Part shown: one piece after another, positions 3,838 to 32,873 of the stretch | Layout of the letters: each line of letters opens with the position of its first letter | Position numbering within the stretch: the stretch's first letter is position 1 | From: Gemmatimonadaceae bacterium | GTDB lineage: Bacteria; Gemmatimonadota; Gemmatimonadetes; Gemmatimonadales; Gemmatimonadaceae | NCBI GenBank assembly: GCA_025453855.1 | Contig: JALOPO010000002.1 | Span: 1-33,311, forward strand | Direction of reading: 5' to 3' | DNA length: 33,311 bases | Notes under the pieces: model-generated | The model's input: only the letters and a program-made list of their open reading frames with translations | Told to the model about the DNA's origin: nothing | Database searches by the model: none | Translations under genes and position numbers: made by a program

Positions 3838-5184
3838 TCAGGCGACGCCCGCGAGCCGACGGAGCACCCACGCCCCCGCGAGCGACAGGAGCGCGATCAC
3901 GGCGAGGAGGCGCGGCTCGGGGCGCCACGGTGCGCGCGCGGGTGCGACGGGGGCAGCGACCACGCGCGGCAGGCCGATGGTCGCGGCGAGCGTCGCCACG
4001 GGTGCCGCGTCGAGCGAGTCATGCAGCACGTCACGCACCGTGTGGGCGAGCGGCGGCGTGCGCGCCACGCCCGCGACGAGCGCCGACCACCAGCGACGGT
4101 GCGCGGCCGGTGCATCGTCGGCGCCGGCCATCCGCCAGCGCCACGAGTCCTCGTACCCCACCTGCACCACCCGTCCCGCGACATGTCGGGCGGCAGCGAT
4201 CGCGATGGCGCCATCGCGCGACTCGATCGGCACGGCGCGCGCACCCGTCACCACCGGCACCAGGTCGAGCCCGTGGCGTGGCTCGTCCTCGCTCGCCTCG
4301 GCGCCGGCCTCGCCACGCACGCGCGCACCGGGCGCACCCGCCCTAACCCCAAGCAGCGCGCCGCTCGCGGCGGCCGAGCCGACGAGCACCGCGCCGCCAC
4401 CGCCGCGCACGAAGTCGGGGATCGCCCGCAGCACCGCGGGCGCGGCCCCGTCGAGCGCGATCACCGCCGCGTGACGCGCACTGTCGAGCTGCGTGCTCCC
4501 CTGCCGCACCGCGACGGTGGGGGCGACGTCGAGCAGCGCATCGACCTGCCACCCCGCCTCCTCGAGCGCGGCGATCACGAAGCGCGACTCCCACCCGGCG
4601 CGACCGGCGACGAGGACGCGTGTGCCGGGGGTGATGGTGTGCACCGGCGCCGTCGCCCGCACGCCGTGCGCGCGCGCCACGACCAGCGACGCGAGCGAGG
4701 CCGCGCGCAGCAGCGTCGGCGCGCGCAGGCTGTCGAGCGCACCGGCGGCATCGGCGATGGCGACGATCGTGCCCGTGTCGCCCGCGACCACGAGCGATGC
4801 CGATGCGGCGGGCCCCTCCACGCGTCGCGCGGCGACGGCGATCGCCGGGAGCGGCGCCGCCGTGCGCAGCGCGAGCGGATGGCCCGCGCCGGCGAGCGCG
4901 CGGAGCGTCATCGTCGCGCGCAGCGCGGGCGCGCCGTCGAGCGTCACCTGCAGCGTCTCGCCCGGTGCGGCGGCGACCAGCGTCGCGAGTGCATCGCGCA
5001 TGCGGCCGAGCGGCGCGTCGAGCACCAGCGAGTCGCCGCGCACGCGCACGGCGGGCACCGGCGACGACGCGGGCGTGGCGAGCGCCCATGCGCACACGGC
5101 CGCCGCGGTCACGCCGATCGCCTGCAACGCGGTGGCGATGGTGGGCAGCGTGCGCCGCGGCGCGGCGTCAGCGCGTGAGGGCAT
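3838..5184 (-). CDS. Membrane-anchored protein at the end of the MoxR operon, function unknown
   Basis: This 448-aa protein is very rich in Ala, Arg and Val. A hydrophobic N-terminal segment (about residues 16-38) and a C-terminal transmembrane helix (about 428-444, followed by a short basic tail) anchor a large domain. Within that domain the stretches TRVLVAGRAGWESRFVIAAL and 'IPDFVRGGGGAVLVGSAAA' resemble the alternating strands of a class I amidotransferase-like or Rossmann-like fold, as found in membrane proteins at the end of Bat/MoxR operons. No catalytic Cys is evident, so enzyme activity is doubtful. The gene overlaps the end of the DUF4159 gene by 17 nt and is probably translated with it. 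It is likely a structural partner of the MoxR/BatA complex; this is inferred from context only. Confidence 0.8.
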   Translation of the reverse strand: MPSRADAAPRRTLPTIATALQAIGVTAAAVCAWALATPASSPVPAVRVRGDSLVLDAPLGRMRDALATLVAAAPGETLQVTLDGAPALRATMTLRALAGAGHPLALRTAAPLPAIAVAARRVEGPAASASLVVAGDTGTIVAIADAAGALDSLRAPTLLRAASLASLVVARAHGVRATAPVHTITPGTRVLVAGRAGWESRFVIAALEEAGWQVDALLDVAPTVAVRQGSTQLDSARHAAVIALDGAAPAVLRAIPDFVRGGGGAVLVGSAAASGALLGVRAGAPGARVRGEAGAEASEDEPRHGLDLVPVVTGARAVPIESRDGAIAIAAARHVAGRVVQVGYEDSWRWRMAGADDAPAAHRRWWSALVAGVARTPPLAHTVRDVLHDSLDAAPVATLAATIGLPRVVAAPVAPARAPWRPEPRLLAVIALLSLAGAWVLRRLAGVA

Positions 5185-5818
5185 AGACGACGAGGTTCAC
5201 GCCGAACCGCACGTTGTCGACGCTCAGGAACTTCCGGTTCTCGGGGTGGAAGCTCCACTCCGAGCTGTAGTCCTTGTTGCTGTAGATCACGCGCAGGCGC
5301 CCGTCACGCTCCGCGCCGAGGAGCTGCTCGTGCACGAGGTTGTCGCCCCAGCCATTGAGCTCGTGCGAGGTGTTCGGCGGGCCGTTCTCGAAGCGGAAGA
5401 AGCTGCGGTAGAGCGCGTGCGTGTTCGGGATCGGGCGCAGCGCGCCGGTCACGCGCGCCAGCTCCTCGGTGCAGGTGCGATGGAAGGGGCCATCGACGTC
5501 GTGGTTGTGATCGTCCACGAAGAGGAGCCCGCCGCGATCGAGGTAGCGCCCGAGCATGGTGCGCTCGGCCGCCGTGAAGCGCACCGGCAGGTGCCCGGTG
5601 AGGAAGGCGAGCGGATGCCGCAGCAGCGCCTCGGAGGCGAGCGGCACCACCGTGCCCGACGGCGCGACATCGATGCGCGTGAACCGCGCGACGGCGTCGA
5701 TCACGTTGGCCGCCACGAGCGGCGCCGAGTCCCAGTCGCCCGACTCGTACTGCACCGTGGCGAAGGTGAAGCGGTCTCCCGTGGCGAGCGGCGACCCGCC
5801 GTGCGCGCGCGCGGTCAT
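5168..5818 (-). CDS. DUF4159 domain-containing protein
   Basis: This 216-aa protein matches the DUF4159 pattern. It begins with a strand and 'Y.sGDWDsaP' (TFATVQYESGDWDSAP), continues with a central 'FLTGH' and 'YLDRGGLLFVDDHN', and has a conserved C-terminal half with 'LYRSFFRF' and the motif RVIYSNKDYSSEW. DUF4159 proteins adopt an amidotransferase-like alpha/beta fold and accompany MoxR, DUF58 and BatA genes in many phyla; their reaction is unknown. It has no signal peptide in the form seen here, so it may be cytoplasmic or secreted by the longer family members' route. Its ATG overlaps the stop of the upstream gene as ATGA. The family call is good; the function is not known. Confidence 0.87.
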   Translation of the reverse strand: MTARAHGGSPLATGDRFTFATVQYESGDWDSAPLVAANVIDAVARFTRIDVAPSGTVVPLASEALLRHPLAFLTGHLPVRFTAAERTMLGRYLDRGGLLFVDDHNHDVDGPFHRTCTEELARVTGALRPIPNTHALYRSFFRFENGPPNTSHELNGWGDNLVHEQLLGAERDGRLRVIYSNKDYSSEWSFHPENRKFLSVDNVRFGVNLVVYALTR

Positions 5819-8019
5819 GGCGCTCCCGTGCTCCAGAGCGGCGTGGCATCACCCCGCACCGGCACCAGTGCCGCGGCACGGCGTGCCCGCTGCAGCGCGG
5901 TCGTCGCATCGGCGCCGGTGGCGAGTGCGCCCAGCGCATCGTCGAGTGCGCGGGCGAGCACCGGGCGCGCCGCGAGCGCATCGAGGCGGAGGAGGCGCAG
6001 CGAGTCGGTGCCGGCGCGCGGCACACGCGCCAGGAGGACGAGCGCGCGATCGAGACGCGTGGCGAGCGCCGCGCCGGCGTCGGGGCGCGCCGGGAGCGGG
6101 GTGCGCGCATCGGCGCGTGCGCTGTCGGTGCCGGTGAGGCGGATCTTCGCGATGTCGACGAGCACCGCCGGCGGTGCGCCGCGCAGGTAGAGCCGCTCGG
6201 CCGCGCGCGCGCGCTGGATCGCGGCCACCGCGCGGCGCATCGGCGCGATGGCCGACGCCGGCTCGGCGCCGTCGAGCGCACGCGACGCGTCCCACATCGC
6301 GTTGTACGCCTCGAGCAGCGGGCGATTCACCGCCACCACCGGCGTCTCGTCACCGTGATCGTCGAGCGTGGCGTTGATCGCGGTGGCCCGTTCGGCCGCC
6401 TTGAGCACCGCCTCGGGGGTGCGCGGCTGCTGGAGCTGCGCGAGCTCGCTGGCGGTGTGGTCGTGGCCGTCGCCGGCGAAGTGCGCATGCTCGCCGCCGG
6501 GCGTGTCGCCGGTGCGCATGAAGATCACCGCCCCGACCTGTCGGCGCAGCCGCCCCTGCTGTGCACCGATCCGCCGCGACTCCGCCACGACCGCGTCGCG
6601 CGCGAGCGTGCGCTGTCGCGCGACCAGCCTTTCGGTGAGCAGGAGGAGCATGCGCTGGCTGATCACGCTCGTGTCGACCGGCGACGGCGGGAGCTGCTCG
6701 ACGGCCACCGAGTCGCCCTCGTCGCTGCGCGGGATGCGGATCACGCGCGTGTCGCTGGTGCCGAGCTGCGCGCCGCGCACCGCGTTGCCGTCGCGCGCGG
6801 CGAGGCGCACGTGGAGCACGTCGCCCGGCTTCACGCCCAGCGCGCCCAGGTCGAGTGTTCCCTGCACCGCGACGTCGCGGTCGAGCGCGCCGGTTCGCGC
6901 GCCGAGGACGCCGGTGCGCGCGGCGAACTGCTCGCCGCCGCCGGTGGTGAGGATCCACTCGAGGCGTGCGTCGGCGATGCCGATGTCGTCGTGCGCGCGG
7001 CCGCGGAGCGCGATGGTGGCGGTGGTGTCGCGCGTGACCACGTCGGTGGCCGGGAGGTCGAGCGAGGCCTCGGGGACGCTGTCCGGCCGCGCGGCGATGG
7101 TGAGCGAGCGTTCGGTGATGCCGTCGGCAAGGAGGACGGCGACGGGCTGCGCGCCGACGCGGACGACGGCGCGCCACGCCTCGTCGCTCCGCTCGAGCGT
7201 CACCGCACGTGCGCCCGCGGTGTCGCCGGCTTCGCGCACGCGCAGCACGACGCGCGCCGCACCGGCCGCGCCCTCGATCTCGAGGCGCGTCCCCTCGATC
7301 GCCTCGACCACGCCGCCGTCGAGCGCGACCGGTCGATCCGGGGCACGCGTGTACGCGGGCGGGACGAGGCGCGCCGTGATCGCGACCGCGCCCGGCGGGA
7401 GCGTGGCGATCGCCGACGGCGGCACGGGTGCACCGCGCATGATCGCCGCGCCGGCATCGGAGCGTTCGCGCCAGGGCCAGAGCGCGAGCGCGAAGCCGGC
7501 CACGGCCGCGCCGAGCATGGTGAGCGACTGGCGGAGTCGCGCACGCGCGATCGTGGCGGCGGGCGCATGCCAGGGCACCGCGCGCACGAACGGCTCGAGG
7601 CGGGCGCGCTCGGCGGGCGACGCGTCGGCGAGGGTGACGAGCGCATAGCGGAGCCGCGGCTCGGCGCGTTCGACCCAGAGCGCGGCATCGGTGGCGGTGA
7701 CGCGCTGGCGCGCGCCGCGACGGATCGGCGTCACGATCCCGATCGCGCCGGTGACGATCGCGACGATCGCCACGCCGGTGCGCGAGGGGACGCCGAGCAC
7801 GATGTGCGAGAGCGCGAGCACGAGCACCGGGAGCAGCGCCCAGGCGAGCGCGATGGCGACGAGGCGCAGCGCGCGCGCGCGGCCGAGGAGGCGTGCGAGC
7901 GCGGCGAGCTGCACGTGCGGATCGGACGCATCGTCGCGCAGCGTCCCGCGTGGCGACGGGCGCGGCGACGCGCTGCTCGCGGTGGCGAGCGGCGATGGCT
8001 CGAAGGGCGTGGCGGTCAT
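5815..8019 (-). CDS. Large membrane protein of the MoxR operon, DUF4175-like
   Basis: I place the start at the ATG at 8019, which overlaps the previous stop as ATGA. The frame is open further upstream but reads as arginine-rich noise there. The resulting 734-aa protein has an N-terminal low-complexity tail, two transmembrane helices (about residues 51-74 and 80-97), a third near 167-181, and then a long extracytoplasmic part. That part contains Ig-like beta segments (for example PSAIATLPPGAVAITARLVP and DDIGIADARLEWILTTGGG) and a helical region ending near 'ERATAINATL'. This layout fits DUF4175-type proteins that accompany MoxR/BatA systems in Gram-negative bacteria. A strongly acidic/His patch (HAHFAGDGHDH) lies in the helical part. 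The molecular role is unknown; it is probably a periplasm-facing scaffold. Confidence 0.82.
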   Translation of the reverse strand: MTATPFEPSPLATASSASPRPSPRGTLRDDASDPHVQLAALARLLGRARALRLVAIALAWALLPVLVLALSHIVLGVPSRTGVAIVAIVTGAIGIVTPIRRGARQRVTATDAALWVERAEPRLRYALVTLADASPAERARLEPFVRAVPWHAPAATIARARLRQSLTMLGAAVAGFALALWPWRERSDAGAAIMRGAPVPPSAIATLPPGAVAITARLVPPAYTRAPDRPVALDGGVVEAIEGTRLEIEGAAGAARVVLRVREAGDTAGARAVTLERSDEAWRAVVRVGAQPVAVLLADGITERSLTIAARPDSVPEASLDLPATDVVTRDTTATIALRGRAHDDIGIADARLEWILTTGGGEQFAARTGVLGARTGALDRDVAVQGTLDLGALGVKPGDVLHVRLAARDGNAVRGAQLGTSDTRVIRIPRSDEGDSVAVEQLPPSPVDTSVISQRMLLLLTERLVARQRTLARDAVVAESRRIGAQQGRLRRQVGAVIFMRTGDTPGGEHAHFAGDGHDHTASELAQLQQPRTPEAVLKAAERATAINATLDDHGDETPVVAVNRPLLEAYNAMWDASRALDGAEPASAIAPMRRAVAAIQRARAAERLYLRGAPPAVLVDIAKIRLTGTDSARADARTPLPARPDAGAALATRLDRALVLLARVPRAGTDSLRLLRLDALAARPVLARALDDALGALATGADATTALQRARRAAALVPVRGDATPLWSTGAP

Positions 8020-9411
8020 CGCGTCAGCGCCTCGTCGCCGGGCGACGCGTCGGTCGCGGCCACCTCGCGACGACCGGTGAGGCGGCGGCGCAGCAGCGGC
8101 TCGACAGCCGCGAGGAGCGCGGCTGCACCGACGAGCCACGGCGCCCACACGGCGCGTTGCGTGGTGACGAGCGTGGCGCGTGTCACGGGGGTGAGTGCGC
8201 CGGGCGCGGCGGCGAGCGCCGCGAGCGCGCGATCGTCCAGCACGGGGACCGGCGCGTCGCACGGGCGCGCCAGCCGCGCGATGGCGTGACGCGCCTCCGG
8301 CGTGATGGCGGCGTCGCCGCGCGAGGGAAGGCCGATCTCCACGAAGCGAGTGCAGCCGCCATGCGGTCCGCGGAGCTCGACCGCAGCAGGGGATCCGTCG
8401 CGCCACCACGCGATCACGTTCGTCCACTGAAAGAGCGGCGGCTCGACTCGACGCCCGCGCGCGAGCGGCGCGACCCAGACGGTTCCGTCATCGAGGCGAA
8501 CGGCATCGAGATCGGCGCGGACGGAATCCGGAGCTGGCATCCACAGGATCCGCGTGGCCGTCGAGTCGCGACCGTCTTCGAACGTGGTGCGGCCCAGCGT
8601 CACGCGCGCGCCGCCCGGCACGCGCGGCACAATGCCCGCAGCCACCGGGTCGTCCGGTAGGGCTGGCGCCATGTACAGCATGGTGATCGAGCCAGGTGTC
8701 GTGTCGCCCGCCGGCGCCGCACTCGCGACGCGCACCATTGCGAGTCGCTCCGGTAGCAGTGCGCGCAACTGCCGGGTGGCGGCGGTCACCGCATCGGCGT
8801 GGAACGGCGAGACGACGGTGAACGCGAGCGTGTCGGCATCACGCGCGAGCGAATCGCGAATGCGGGCGAGCACCGCGAGCGCGACATCGAGCCGCGAAGG
8901 CAGGAACCGGCGCGGTAGACGAACGGGTGGGTGCGGTGGGAAGACGAACCGCTTGCCCACGGCGCTGGCCGGGCGTGCCTGCGAGACGGAATCCCGCCAT
9001 GCGCGCGCCAGCGAATCCGCATCCGGCGGATCGCGCCGCGCCATGCTGTCCGCGCGCCATGCCGCCACCGACTGCACCCGCGCCGCCGTGTCGAAGTCGA
9101 TCACCGCATCGCGCGCATCGAGCCCGCGCACCGCCGCCATCCGCGCCCCCTCGCTCGCTCGCGCATCGAGCAGCACCACGCGCCGCACGCGCACCGACTC
9201 GCCCGCCGGGACGCACTGCGCCGCCCCGAGGCCGAGCAGCGCCAGCACGAGCACCCGCAGCACGAGGAGCCAGGGATCGCGCGGCCGGCGCACGAGCGCC
9301 CGCGCATCGAGGTCGCCGGCGGGGAGGAAGCGCGCCGAGCAGGTGCGCGAGCACCGTCGCCAGCGCCGCCACACCGGCGACCCCGAGCAGCAGCGGCGCG
9401 AGCCACGTCAT
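8016..9411 (-). CDS. BatA-like double-transmembrane protein with apparent frameshift near 9335
   Basis: The natural start is the ATG at 9411, overlapping the DUF58 stop as ATGA. It encodes MTWLAPLLLGVAGVAALATV, the typical BatA N-terminal helix. About 25 codons later the sense continues in another frame as ARFLPAGDLDARALVRRP, followed by the second helix DPWLLVLRVLVLALLGLGAA. The total span of 1396 nt is one base more than a whole number of codons. Removing one base near 9333-9339 would join the two helices in frame (LLARFLP). The downstream frame alone could only start at a GTG (9374) and would lack helix one. The rest holds a von Willebrand-like domain and a C-terminal helix (APWLVGAAALLAAV). 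BatA-type proteins sit in the inner membrane with MoxR and DUF58. This is either a sequencing error or a real lesion. Confidence 0.8.
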
Positions 9412-10391
9412 GCGCGTCCCACGGTCACCGGCGTGCCCGCCGCACGCGCGGGCGCCGCACCGTCCGGCGACGCCGGCTCGCGTCCCGTCGCATCGCGCGC
9501 CGCCGCCAGCCGCCGCACCCACGTGGCCGCCGGGAGCGCATCGTCGACCTCGAGGTAGCGCGCGCCGATCCGCTGCCACGCCGCGCGCTCCTCGGCGCGC
9601 CACGCGGCGAAGGTCGCGTCGTGCGCGAGTGCCGCCGTGCGCGCGAGCGGCCGCCGCAGCCCATCATCCTCGGGATCGACGGCGATCGCCCCCGCCATCG
9701 CGAGTGCGCGCTCGCCGGCAGCCACCACGTGCGCCACGTGCAGCTCGGTCCCGTGCGCCACCAGCGTCGCCGCCGCCGCGCGCATCGCGTCGGCATCGCC
9801 GAGCAGGTCGCTCACGATCACCACGCGCGCGACCGCACGCTGCGGGGCGAGGAGCGGCGCGCACGCGGCGTCGCCGGCGGGTGCGGTCGCATCGAGCACG
9901 CGCATCAGCTCGCGCACCACGTCGCCGCGGCCGCGCGGGGCGAGGCGCAGCGACGCGTCGGCGTGCGCGATCGCGAGCCCCACCGGGTCGCCGGCCGCGC
10001 GCGCGATCGCCGCCACGCCGATCGTCACGTGCCGCGCGACGCGCCACTTGCCCGCACCGCCCGGCGGCGCCGCCATCGACGCGCTCGCGTCGACCACCAG
10101 CAGCGTCGGCGCGATGCTCGACGAGGGGGCGAGGCGGATGTACGCGCGCTCGGTGCGCGCCAGCAGCTTCCAGTCGAGGCGGCGCGGATCGTCGCCCTGC
10201 CGGTACGGCCGATGCGCCATCACCTCCATGCTCGGCGCGGTGCGTCGCGCCTCGTGCGCGCCGGTGACGGCGTGCGGCGGCCGGCGATCGGCGCGCCAGC
10301 GGATCCCGCGCACGGCGTCGAGGAGCGCGCCGTACTCGTGCGCGGCGCGCGTCGCCTCGTTCGTCGCGCTCTCGCCACGCCGCGCCGTCAT
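9408..10391 (-). CDS. DUF58 domain-containing protein (MoxR partner)
   Basis: I start this 327-aa protein at the ATG at 10391, five bases after the moxR stop; earlier codons lie inside moxR and read as noise. The DUF58 signature YRQGDDPRRLDW is at residues 63-74, followed by 'LLARTERAYIRL'. A von Willebrand factor A-like fold then begins with LLVVDASASM (97-106), whose DxSxS metal-site motif is intact. DUF58 proteins are the usual direct partner of MoxR AAA+ ATPases; the pair is thought to act as a chaperone that inserts metals or assembles protein complexes. No transmembrane segment is seen. It overlaps the BatA-like gene by four bases, consistent with coupled expression. Confidence 0.94.
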   Translation of the reverse strand: MTARRGESATNEATRAAHEYGALLDAVRGIRWRADRRPPHAVTGAHEARRTAPSMEVMAHRPYRQGDDPRRLDWKLLARTERAYIRLAPSSSIAPTLLVVDASASMAAPPGGAGKWRVARHVTIGVAAIARAAGDPVGLAIAHADASLRLAPRGRGDVVRELMRVLDATAPAGDAACAPLLAPQRAVARVVIVSDLLGDADAMRAAAATLVAHGTELHVAHVVAAGERALAMAGAIAVDPEDDGLRRPLARTAALAHDATFAAWRAEERAAWQRIGARYLEVDDALPAATWVRRLAAARDATGREPASPDGAAPARAAGTPVTVGRA

Positions 10392-10395
10392 GCGC

Positions 10396-11424
10396 TCAGT
10401 CGGCGATCGCGCCCCGCGGCGGCGGCACCGCGTCGAGCAGCGCGCGCACGATCGCGTCGGCATCCACGCCGTCGGCCTCGGCCGCGTAGTTCGGGAGCAC
10501 GCGATGGCGCAGCACCGGGAGCGCGACACGACGCACGTCGTCGGGCGTGGGCACCGGGCGCCCGTCGAGCAGCGCGTGCGCCTTGGCGCCGAGCACCAGC
10601 GCCTGCCCCGCGCGCGGCCCGGCCCCCCAGCGCACGTAGCGCTGCACGAGCGACGGCGTGCGCGCGTCGCCCGGGCGCGAGGCGCGCACGAGCTGCGCCG
10701 CGTAGCGCAGCACCGGTTCGGCGGCGGGGAGCTCGCGCACCGCGAGCTGCAGCGCGCGGACCTCGTGCGCGCCCAGCACCGGCTCGAGCGCGGCCGTCGC
10801 GCGGCCCGTCGTCTGGCGCAGGATCGCCACCTCGTCGTCCTCGCCCGGATAGCCGACGCGCACCTGGAAGAGGAAGCGGTCGAGCTGCGCCTCGGGGAGC
10901 GGGTAGGTCCCCTCCTGCTCGATCGGGTTCTGCGTGGCGAGCACGAAGAACGGGTTGGGCAGCGGCATCGACTCGCCGGCGGCGGTCACGCGACGCTCCT
11001 GCATCGCCTCGAGCAGCGCGGCCTGCGTGCGCGGCGGCGCGCGATTGATCTCGTCGGCCAGGACGATGTTGGCGAAGACGGGGCCGCGCACGAAGCGGAA
11101 GCTGCGGTGCCCCGTCGCGGTGTCCTCCTCCAGCAGCTCGGTGCCGGTGATGTCGCTCGGCACCAGGTCCGGCGTGAACTGGATGCGGCGGAACTCGAGC
11201 GACATGGCATCGGCGACGCTCTGCACCATGAGCGTCTTCGCGAGCCCCGGCACGCCGACGAGGAGCGCATGGCCACCCGCGAGGATCGCCAGCAGGAGCT
11301 CGTCGAGCGCCTCGCCCTGCCCCACCACGCGCGTCGCCACCTGCGCGCGCAGCCGCTGCGCCCCCTGGACGAGCGCGGCGAGGTCGCTCGCGGGCGCGAC
11401 CTGTGTGCGGGGTGGCGCCGTCAT
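10396..11424 (-). CDS. MoxR-family AAA+ ATPase
   Basis: I start this 342-aa cytoplasmic ATPase at the ATG at 11424 (MTAPPRTQ); the frame is open upstream but gives non-family sequence. Motifs in order are Walker A GVPGLAKT (57-64), the MoxR-specific 'RIQFTPDLVPSDITG' (80-94), Walker B VLADEINRAPPRTQAALLEA (121-140), sensor 1 VLATQNP (161-167) and 'EGTYPLPEAQLDRF', with the C-terminal lid following. MoxR ATPases form hexameric rings that work with VWA-domain proteins in protein or metal-site maturation, stress resistance and cell-envelope integrity. It heads the run DUF58, BatA-like, DUF4175-like, DUF4159. The small ubiquitin-like gene upstream ends 22 nt before its start, so that gene may be the true first cistron. 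Confidence 0.96.
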   Translation of the reverse strand: MTAPPRTQVAPASDLAALVQGAQRLRAQVATRVVGQGEALDELLLAILAGGHALLVGVPGLAKTLMVQSVADAMSLEFRRIQFTPDLVPSDITGTELLEEDTATGHRSFRFVRGPVFANIVLADEINRAPPRTQAALLEAMQERRVTAAGESMPLPNPFFVLATQNPIEQEGTYPLPEAQLDRFLFQVRVGYPGEDDEVAILRQTTGRATAALEPVLGAHEVRALQLAVRELPAAEPVLRYAAQLVRASRPGDARTPSLVQRYVRWGAGPRAGQALVLGAKAHALLDGRPVPTPDDVRRVALPVLRHRVLPNYAAEADGVDADAIVRALLDAVPPPRGAIAD

Positions 11425-11446
11425 GGCGTGCGACGCGACGTGCGGC

Positions 11447-11797
11447 TCACTTGAGCGGACGACGCTTGCGGAAGTGCAGGAGCAGCGTGGAGCCGTCGAG
11501 CACGCCCGCGTCGGCGAGCGCACGGCGCTCGTCGCGCACCTCGTGGCCGCGCAGCTTCACGAGCACGTCGTCCGGGTACTGCACGTCGGGGGCGAGCACG
11601 GCCAGCGCGCGCGCCTTCACCGTCGCCACCGACTCGCGCGGCGAGGCGACGACCGCGATCGCGTCCCACGCGTCGAGGAACTGCACGCGGAAGGCGATGG
11701 TCGCCTCGCCCTCGCCCGCGAGGACGAGCGGCGCGCCGGGTGTGCGGAGCTGGTTCACGAACGGCGTCGTGCCGGCGGGAACGGACGAGTGGGCCAT
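11447..11797 (-). CDS. Small ubiquitin-like-fold protein without C-terminal Gly-Gly
   Basis: This 116-aa protein has a variable N-terminal extension (1-30), then a segment that follows the ubiquitin pattern. Strands lie at about 33-40 (TIAFRVQF) and 45-51 (DAIAVVA), then a helix (55-68, SVATVKARALAVLA, like ubiquitin's TIENVKAKIQ). Next come strand VLVKLRG (78-84) with 'G.EVRDERRALADAGV' (ubiquitin G.qLeDgrTLsDYnI) and a last strand GSTLLLHFRKRR (compare ubiquitin STLHLVLRLR). It ends in RPLK, not Gly-Gly, so a direct modifier role would need a different mechanism. YukD/EsaB of type VII secretion is a precedent for a ubiquitin fold without Gly-Gly. No E1, E2 or JAB gene is adjacent. It is 22 nt upstream of moxR in the same direction. 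The fold call is my reading of pattern, not a search result. Confidence 0.75.
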   Translation of the reverse strand: MAHSSVPAGTTPFVNQLRTPGAPLVLAGEGEATIAFRVQFLDAWDAIAVVASPRESVATVKARALAVLAPDVQYPDDVLVKLRGHEVRDERRALADAGVLDGSTLLLHFRKRRPLK

Positions 11798-29792: not shown

Positions 29793-32700
29793 ATGCCGAC
29801 ATTCACCGAGCGCGAGCTCGACGTGATGACCGTCCTCTGGCAGCTCGGCGACGCAACCGCCGGTGAGGTCCGTGACGCACTCGCCGCCGACGGCCTCGAC
29901 CTCGCGTACAACAGCGTGCTCACGATGCTGCGGATCCTCCAGGAGAAGGGGCACGTCGCGCACGAGGTCGAGGGGCGCGCGCATCGCTTCCGCCCGCTGG
30001 TGCGGCGCGAGGAGGCGGGGCGGAGCGCGGTGCGGCGGCTGGTCGACGGGCTGTTCGATCGGTCGCCGGAGCTGCTGCTCACGCACCTGGTCCGTGACGA
30101 GCGCGTCGATCGCGCCACACTGGAGCGGTTGCGGGCGCTCGTGGAGCACGAGCTGGCCGAGGACGACGCGGGGGCACGCGGCGTCGTGGCGAAGCGGATC
30201 GGGTGGCCGACGCGCTGGGTCTGGCTGGCGGCGATGGTGGCGATGCTCGTGGCGCCGGTGGTGCCGCGCCCCGTTCCGGGACGCCTCGCCTTCACGGCGA
30301 CCACGTTCGCTGCCGTCGACGAACGTGCGGTCGCGCGGACGCGCGAGCGCATCCGTGGTGATGCGCGTGCAGGCGCTGGCGATGAATCCTCGGGTGTTCC
30401 GGGTACCATCGGCAACACGCGCGCGCTGCAGCGCAGGTCGGGCATCGGGACACCGCTCCCACCGGATGCACGCGTGGAGATCACGATGGGGCGTGTCACC
30501 GGCAACGCCGTCGTGTTAGCAGCGAACGACCGCCTGGCATGGGCGGGGCGCGTCGCAGCGGTGGCGTGGTGCGCACTTACCGTGGTCGCGCTGGCGCTGG
30601 TGGGGCTCGCCATCGGGCGGCTCGCGCGCGCGCGGCGTGAGTGGACGCGTGCCGACGAGGCCACGCACGCCGTGATCGCCGAGGCAGCGGGCAGGTCGGT
30701 GCCGGTCTCGATGTCGCGCGCGACTGGACCGGCCGCGTTCGGGCTCGGCGAACTGCAGGTGGTCCTTCCGGCTTGGGTAGGCGAACTGCCCGACGGCGAA
30801 CGCACGCTCCTGCTCGCCCATGAGGCGGCGCACATCCGCGCACATGACCCACGTCTGCTCGCCGCCGCGCTGCTGCCTGTCGCCCTTGCACCATGGCACG
30901 TGCCGCTGCTCGTCGCCTACCGGCGGCTCTGCCGCGCGGTGGAGCACGATTGCGATGCCCGTGTGCTCGCGCGTCACGGCGATGCTCGTGCGTACGGGCG
31001 ACTTCTCGTGCACACGGCCGAGTGGCTGCTCGCCGGACGTGGGGCGTGGCGCGGTGGCCTTGCCGCGCGCTGGATCCTTGCTCCCGTCCCGGCCTTCGCG
31101 GCGTCGCCGACGGAGCTTGAAGGGCGACTGCGCGCCCTCGTGCGCCGTCCCGCGAGCTGGGGCACGCGACTCGGGACGCTGTGCGTGGGGGCGATCGGCG
31201 TGGTGGCGCTGCTCGCAGCCTGCGCGGCACCGTCGCCGACGACGGGATCGTCGCGCATCACGTACGGGGTGTCATCGCTGCCACGGACGTTGCGCGACTC
31301 CATGCGACTGTACGACCGGGTGAATGACCTGCGCATGCGGAGCCGTCTCGAGGCGGTGAGGGATTCGCTCATCGACGCTGCGGCCCTGCAGGCGATTCCG
31401 GCACTCGACACGCTCGCCGGTGTCGATTCACTCAGCATCTGGGTGCTGCTCGACGACGACCTCCGCGCGGTCGCGACACGCGTCGCGCCACGTCACCAGT
31501 TCCTGTGGGCGATGGAGCGCGTCGTCCCGGGCTTCGGCCGGGACACGTACACGGTGGCCACACGCGGTACGCCGGACGCGGCACTCGCCGCGAACGTCAA
31601 CTCGTGGTCCCGCGCCTTTCCGCTGCTCGACCCCGACCGCGTCAACCAGCACGGGGCACGCGAGCTGCGCCTCCCGCAGGGGACGCTCACGGTGCAGTGG
31701 GCGCGCCTGTACGCGGGCGACAGCACATCCACGATGCGGCTCCGCGCGGCTGGCGAGCCACCGCGCGTCCCCGCGTGGTACCGCACGGTGGTCGAAGCGG
31801 TGAGCCGCGACGGCGCGGTCGCCCGGCGCGACTTCGCGGCGGCACTGGACCGGGGCCTGCGCGCGAGCCTCGCATCGCGCTACCCCGAGGCGCTCGACAC
31901 GATTGCCACGCGTGGGGAGTCGTTCGTCTGGCTCGTGCTCGGCCCGACCGGCAATGCCGTCGCGCACGCCACGGGCCGCGCCGGCATGGGCGTGAAGCGC
32001 CCGCGGACCAGCGACGCCACGCCGCTTGCGCGCGCCGTGCCCACCACACCCGAGTCGCAGCTCACCATCGATGACGCCGCGTGGCGCACGAAGTTCCCCA
32101 CGCTCAACCTCACACCCGCGAGCTTCGGCTGGACGTCGTTCCTCGTCGGCACTCGCACCGTGAACGTGCTCTGGGTGCTCACCGATGTCTCCCTCGCCGG
32201 CGGCTCCCGTACCGCGCCGGCCGCCGGCGCGCCAGGCGCTACGCCGGCTCTCGTCGCCGACACGGTGCTCGCGATGGCGCAAGCACTCCCCACCGCACCA
32301 GCGCTCGCAGCGACGCCGGCACTCGCCACGACACCAGCGCGCGCCGCAACGCCGGCACTCCCCGCAGCGCACGCCCCCGCGGCAGCACAGGCAGTCGACG
32401 CACGCCGCGCCGACTCGCTCATCGCCGATGCCTACGTCGACGCCCATGCCGCGCAATCCGCGCGCGTCGAGCGGCTCCGTCGCTCGGTGCGACGCGCGCT
32501 GTCGGCCCGTGAGGCCGCGAACATGGACCGCCTCCTGCGCAGCACCATCGTCACCGCGCGCCCCGAGCTCCTGCGTGGCCGCCGCACCGACGCCGACTTC
32601 GTCTGGCTCGTCTTCGACTCCACCGGACAGGTCGTCGCCAGCGACACCGGGCGCGCCGGTCTCGGTGTCAAGGTCGACGGCTGGCGCGGCGAACTTCTCC

Positions 32701-32873
32701 CGTTGCCGCGCGCCACCGACGTCACCGCACGTGACTCGCTGGTGCTCGACCCGCGGGCGTTCCGCACCAAGTTCGCCGGACGCGTGCATCGCGGGAGCGG
32801 CTACACCTGGCAAGGGCTCACCCTCCCCAACGGACAGATCAACGTCCTCTGGACCGTCGCGGCACGCGACTGA
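29793..32873 (+). CDS. BlaI-BlaR1 fusion: DNA-binding repressor joined to an M56 membrane metalloprotease
   Basis: This is one open frame of 1026 aa. Residues 1-125 are a complete BlaI/MecI winged-helix repressor with dimerisation region (TERELDVMTVLWQLGDATAG, NSVLTMLRILQEKGHV). After a short linker it enters M56/BlaR1 sequence at WPTRWVWLAAMVAMLVAPVV (helix about 141-157), which corresponds to the second helix of ordinary M56 proteins; the first is absent. A helix at 254-275 precedes the gluzincin domain with HEAAH (343-347) and third-ligand region EHDCDARVL (384-392). A last helix lies at 459-479. Residues 490-1026 are extracytoplasmic, with three divergent repeats and an Ala/Thr/Pro-rich linker (about 809-865). 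No penicillin-binding domain is seen. A promoter with two operators precedes it. A partial gene follows after 19 nt. Confidence 0.93.
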   Translation: MPTFTERELDVMTVLWQLGDATAGEVRDALAADGLDLAYNSVLTMLRILQEKGHVAHEVEGRAHRFRPLVRREEAGRSAVRRLVDGLFDRSPELLLTHLVRDERVDRATLERLRALVEHELAEDDAGARGVVAKRIGWPTRWVWLAAMVAMLVAPVVPRPVPGRLAFTATTFAAVDERAVARTRERIRGDARAGAGDESSGVPGTIGNTRALQRRSGIGTPLPPDARVEITMGRVTGNAVVLAANDRLAWAGRVAAVAWCALTVVALALVGLAIGRLARARREWTRADEATHAVIAEAAGRSVPVSMSRATGPAAFGLGELQVVLPAWVGELPDGERTLLLAHEAAHIRAHDPRLLAAALLPVALAPWHVPLLVAYRRLCRAVEHDCDARVLARHGDARAYGRLLVHTAEWLLAGRGAWRGGLAARWILAPVPAFAASPTELEGRLRALVRRPASWGTRLGTLCVGAIGVVALLAACAAPSPTTGSSRITYGVSSLPRTLRDSMRLYDRVNDLRMRSRLEAVRDSLIDAAALQAIPALDTLAGVDSLSIWVLLDDDLRAVATRVAPRHQFLWAMERVVPGFGRDTYTVATRGTPDAALAANVNSWSRAFPLLDPDRVNQHGARELRLPQGTLTVQWARLYAGDSTSTMRLRAAGEPPRVPAWYRTVVEAVSRDGAVARRDFAAALDRGLRASLASRYPEALDTIATRGESFVWLVLGPTGNAVAHATGRAGMGVKRPRTSDATPLARAVPTTPESQLTIDDAAWRTKFPTLNLTPASFGWTSFLVGTRTVNVLWVLTDVSLAGGSRTAPAAGAPGATPALVADTVLAMAQALPTAPALAATPALATTPARAATPALPAAHAPAAAQAVDARRADSLIADAYVDAHAAQSARVERLRRSVRRALSAREAANMDRLLRSTIVTARPELLRGRRTDADFVWLVFDSTGQVVASDTGRAGLGVKVDGWRGELLPLPRATDVTARDSLVLDPRAFRTKFAGRVHRGSGYTWQGLTLPNGQINVLWTVAARD

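Follow-up and report, generated by a model that had tools for sequence, protein, structure and literature searches.

The BatA-like gene of a MoxR operon in the window (the entire 33,311-nucleotide stretch of DNA that was analyzed) is split between two reading frames, and net 35 bp are absent at the break relative to an intact homologue. The frame break was confirmed in the sequence as written. We slightly favor a genuine deletion in the organism, recent and amounting to net 35 bp in the helix 1-helix 2 loop, over an assembly or consensus artefact.

The operon is located on the minus strand and comprises, in order, (i) a gene encoding a MoxR-family AAA+ ATPase (10396-11523; Pfam AAA_3, E 1.9e-62, and AAA_lid_2, E 2.8e-18), (ii) a gene encoding a DUF58 protein (9408-10391; Pfam DUF58, E 1.9e-27), (iii) the BatA-like gene, (iv) a gene for a large protein that gave no match in a Pfam search (5815-8019), and (v) a gene encoding a DUF4159 protein (5168-5818; Pfam DUF4159, E 9.3e-48). 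The junctions around the BatA-like gene are tightly spaced. The MoxR stop at 10396 is followed by ATG 10391, the likely start of the DUF58 gene judging from the surrounding sequence, and the last two genes are coupled through ATGA at 8019 and 5818, respectively. The BatA-like ATG (9411-9409) overlaps the DUF58 stop TGA (9410-9408), also as ATGA. Outside the BatA-like gene the operon is intact, and the genes directly upstream of it, encoding MoxR and DUF58, are those that accompany members of the BatA family. Three further MoxR-type genes (49-59% identity) were found in the same bin, on contigs C333 (15293-16300), C347 (1196-2140) and C352 (1639-2700).

The BatA-like gene opens with an intact segment (9337-9411, minus strand) that contains ATG 9411 and the first membrane helix (MTWLAPLLLGVAGVAALATVLAHLL), as indicated by orthologue alignment, a codon-usage scan and hydropathy. 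The rest of the gene (8016-9332, minus strand) is placed in the +1 frame by the codon-usage scan, the profile match and hydropathy; it encodes the second helix, the body and the C-terminal helix, and ends at the stop codon 8018-8016. The scan, performed in 11-codon windows and trained on the other genes of the analyzed DNA, favored the ATG frame up to the position centered on 9340 (∼9337) and the +1 frame from 9328 (∼9332) over most of the remaining gene. A profile of 15 intact orthologues matched frame 0 at profile positions 1-56 (iE 1.4e-6), with the alignment extending past the break, and frame 1 at positions 37-417 (iE 9e-22 and 1e-50). The frame switch was thus located at 9337-9332. These results uphold most of an earlier note on this DNA, which had described a BatA-like gene with an ATGA-coupled start at 9411, the expected first membrane helix and a frame break near 9335. 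The cause that it proposed, one extra base, did not survive comparison with a related sequence.

This sequence, C17, is a 3,093-bp contig of the same bin that carries homologous DUF58 and BatA-like genes and, in its 3' part, a homologue of the next gene. The longer matches are ∼75-81% identical at the DNA level, and the BatA-like gene of C17 is intact (418 aa). In a pairwise DNA alignment the window and C17 match to offset 74-77, a 35-base gap follows, and the match then resumes. The junction lies at 9333-9337 on the minus strand, an interval within which four equally scoring placements make the exact position of the deletion ambiguous. Where C17 reads HLFARRRPTAVPIATTRFLPAG, the window has HLLGA and then, in the other frame, RFLPAG; the helix 1-helix 2 loop is short of about 12 residues, including the family-invariant T37 and the near-invariant P30. 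Because −35 equals +1 modulo 3, the deletion imitates the insertion of one base, and one added base, with the gene otherwise complete, would indeed account for a frame change equivalent to +1. However, a one-base sequencing slip does not explain a break at which net 35 bp are absent compared to an intact homologue and residues present in every orthologue are gone. The window is not collinear with its relatives apart from one base, as shown by the gap relative to C17 and by the linker missing relative to all 15 orthologues. The alignment contradicts this proposal, and we accord it practically no credence.

Of the 15 aligned orthologues, one is that of C17 and the other 14 belong to genomes from the same family or order. 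The linker between helix 1 and helix 2 is uninterrupted in every one, with T37, R39 and F40 (T37-x-R39-F40) invariant and P30 nearly so, and all 15 match PF07584 (BatA) and TIGR02226 (two_anch). Neither frame of the window matches PF07584 (Pfam, E 0.1), and this domain was not recovered at E 0.001 by a query in which X residues spanned the gap; the N-terminal domain of the family is represented in the window only by the split matches with the orthologue profile. A wider search of the family gave matches in 75 of 179 genomes, that of the window included, and 29 of the loci were examined, some of them in genomes already sampled. The profile is covered without a break from position 1-2 to its end in 27 of these; the other two (L035 and L043) are cut by contig ends. 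Neither the 15 aligned orthologues nor the 29 wider loci yielded an internal GTG start or a protein devoid of helix 1. The idea that the family normally starts at an internal GTG was thus rejected; the two loci that might have seemed to do so are those cut by contig ends. A contig-level genome scan with the window protein identified no relative.

The window thus shares with BatA-type proteins encoded beside MoxR and DUF58 the two upstream genes, and with the orthologues of the same family and order both N-terminal helices and the body. It differs in the splitting of the N-terminal domain over two frames, in the loss of the linker, and in an extra segment of ∼40-50 residues that the aligned orthologues lack.

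The ratio of third-position to first-plus-second-position changes relative to C17 is 0.85 for the body of the BatA-like gene and 0.88 for the next gene. The similarity of these values indicates that ordinary constraint acted on the BatA-like gene during most of the period after its divergence from C17, and the lesion is therefore either recent or not present in the cell at all. The persistence of coding bias and conserved residues downstream of the break points the same way, to a recent or artificial lesion.

If the deletion is in the DNA of the cell, as we infer, its likely cause would be a pair of short G+C-rich direct repeats. The junction reads GGCGCGC, and the inferred ancestral codons for 'GAR' and 'TAR' could both have read so; a slip between such repeats would take out exactly 35 bp. 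A 7-base repeat is too short for a short-read assembler to collapse, and this provides mild evidence for a genuine deletion.

The frame change limits the product of ATG 9411 to 190 residues, the frame-0 product ending at 8841-8839 after 190 codons, and ribosomes starting there would make a peptide in which helix 1 is followed by nonsense sequence. Only a restart at an internal GTG (9374, for example) could produce the remainder, and helix 1 would then be left out; according to hydropathy, the product from GTG 9374 keeps helix 2 and the C-terminal helix and loses helix 1. In the genome as written, the BatA-like subunit is probably lost or non-functional. It should be noted that what Bat proteins do is unsettled and that such a loss would not necessarily be harmful, since Leptospira biflexa deleted for batABD showed no phenotype in growth or under oxidative stress (PMC3557215).

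An assembly or consensus artefact, in which the cell has an unbroken gene and the 35 bases disappeared during library preparation, low-coverage G+C-rich assembly or mixed-strain collapse, is a serious competitor to which we give a little less than an even chance. The bin is a draft of 561 contigs, 74% complete, and it may be mixed, because it is fragmented and includes a 3-kb contig on which a homologue of this region lies. All sampled orthologues are intact, as is the remaining operon, and the coding bias and family-conserved residues retained in the downstream frame would also be seen with a mere consensus fault. On the other hand, no long repeat that could make an assembler collapse the region flanks the junction, and a search of the bin found no near-identical copy in intact form. 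A codon scan of the whole window with a heavier switching penalty detected no further gene that was obviously broken internally, so the contig does not give the impression of being full of errors; such a scan is weak for short pieces, as the 75-base 5' piece was absorbed into its neighbors because the DUF58 gene and the BatA-like body share a frame. The bin also yielded no second DUF4159 gene of close similarity. C17 therefore probably derives from a related species whose fragment was co-binned, rather than from duplication of the operon. The searches made included no other genome of the window's genus, and a literature search on assembly-type frameshifts in draft metagenome bins returned nothing of use.

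Whether mutation or assembly fault, the lesion is of an ordinary kind. It shares with frame-breaking short deletions of the pseudogene or draft-assembly-error type a loss that is not a multiple of three, a short G+C-rich junction and intact relatives, and shows nothing unusual beside them.

The downstream frame is open for 438 codons with its coding bias kept (an open frame of this length arose by chance in 33 of 2000 order-1 Markov sequences), which might suggest a functional short form initiated at GTG 9374 without helix 1, or a joining of the two frames by programmed frameshifting. We consider this very improbable. No orthologue lacks helix 1, and inspection by eye revealed no evident Shine-Dalgarno-like site before GTG 9374 and no slippery heptamer. 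Programmed frameshifting was rejected on the ground that it would not restore the missing linker. It is equally hard to credit a lineage with a working MoxR-DUF58 operon whose BatA-like subunit is made from the internal GTG without the first helix; if true, it would show that the protein can do without its first anchor.

The case matters mainly for annotation: automatic gene calling could start a 452-aa protein at GTG 9374 and miss the first helix, and the record deserves a frame-broken flag. It is also a minor warning that what looks like a +1 frameshift may turn out to be a deletion of 35 bp.

The extra segment of the body is in frame, at about 8903-9065 (RADSMARRDPPDADSLARAWRDSVSQ...RFLPSR), and is absent from all 15 aligned orthologues. 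Its codon-phase signal drifts to other frames at ∼8980-9004 and 8908-8932. The segment may thus contain frame changes that compensate each other, or it may be a linker under weak constraint. A search with 8890-9075 for a repeat or mobile element behind it found no strong second copy in the bin.

Elsewhere in the window, positions 29793-32873 contain an open frame of 1026 aa, in which a Penicillinase_R (BlaI-type) repressor domain is followed, in one frame, by an M56 (BlaR1-type) peptidase domain, possibly representing a repressor/peptidase fusion.
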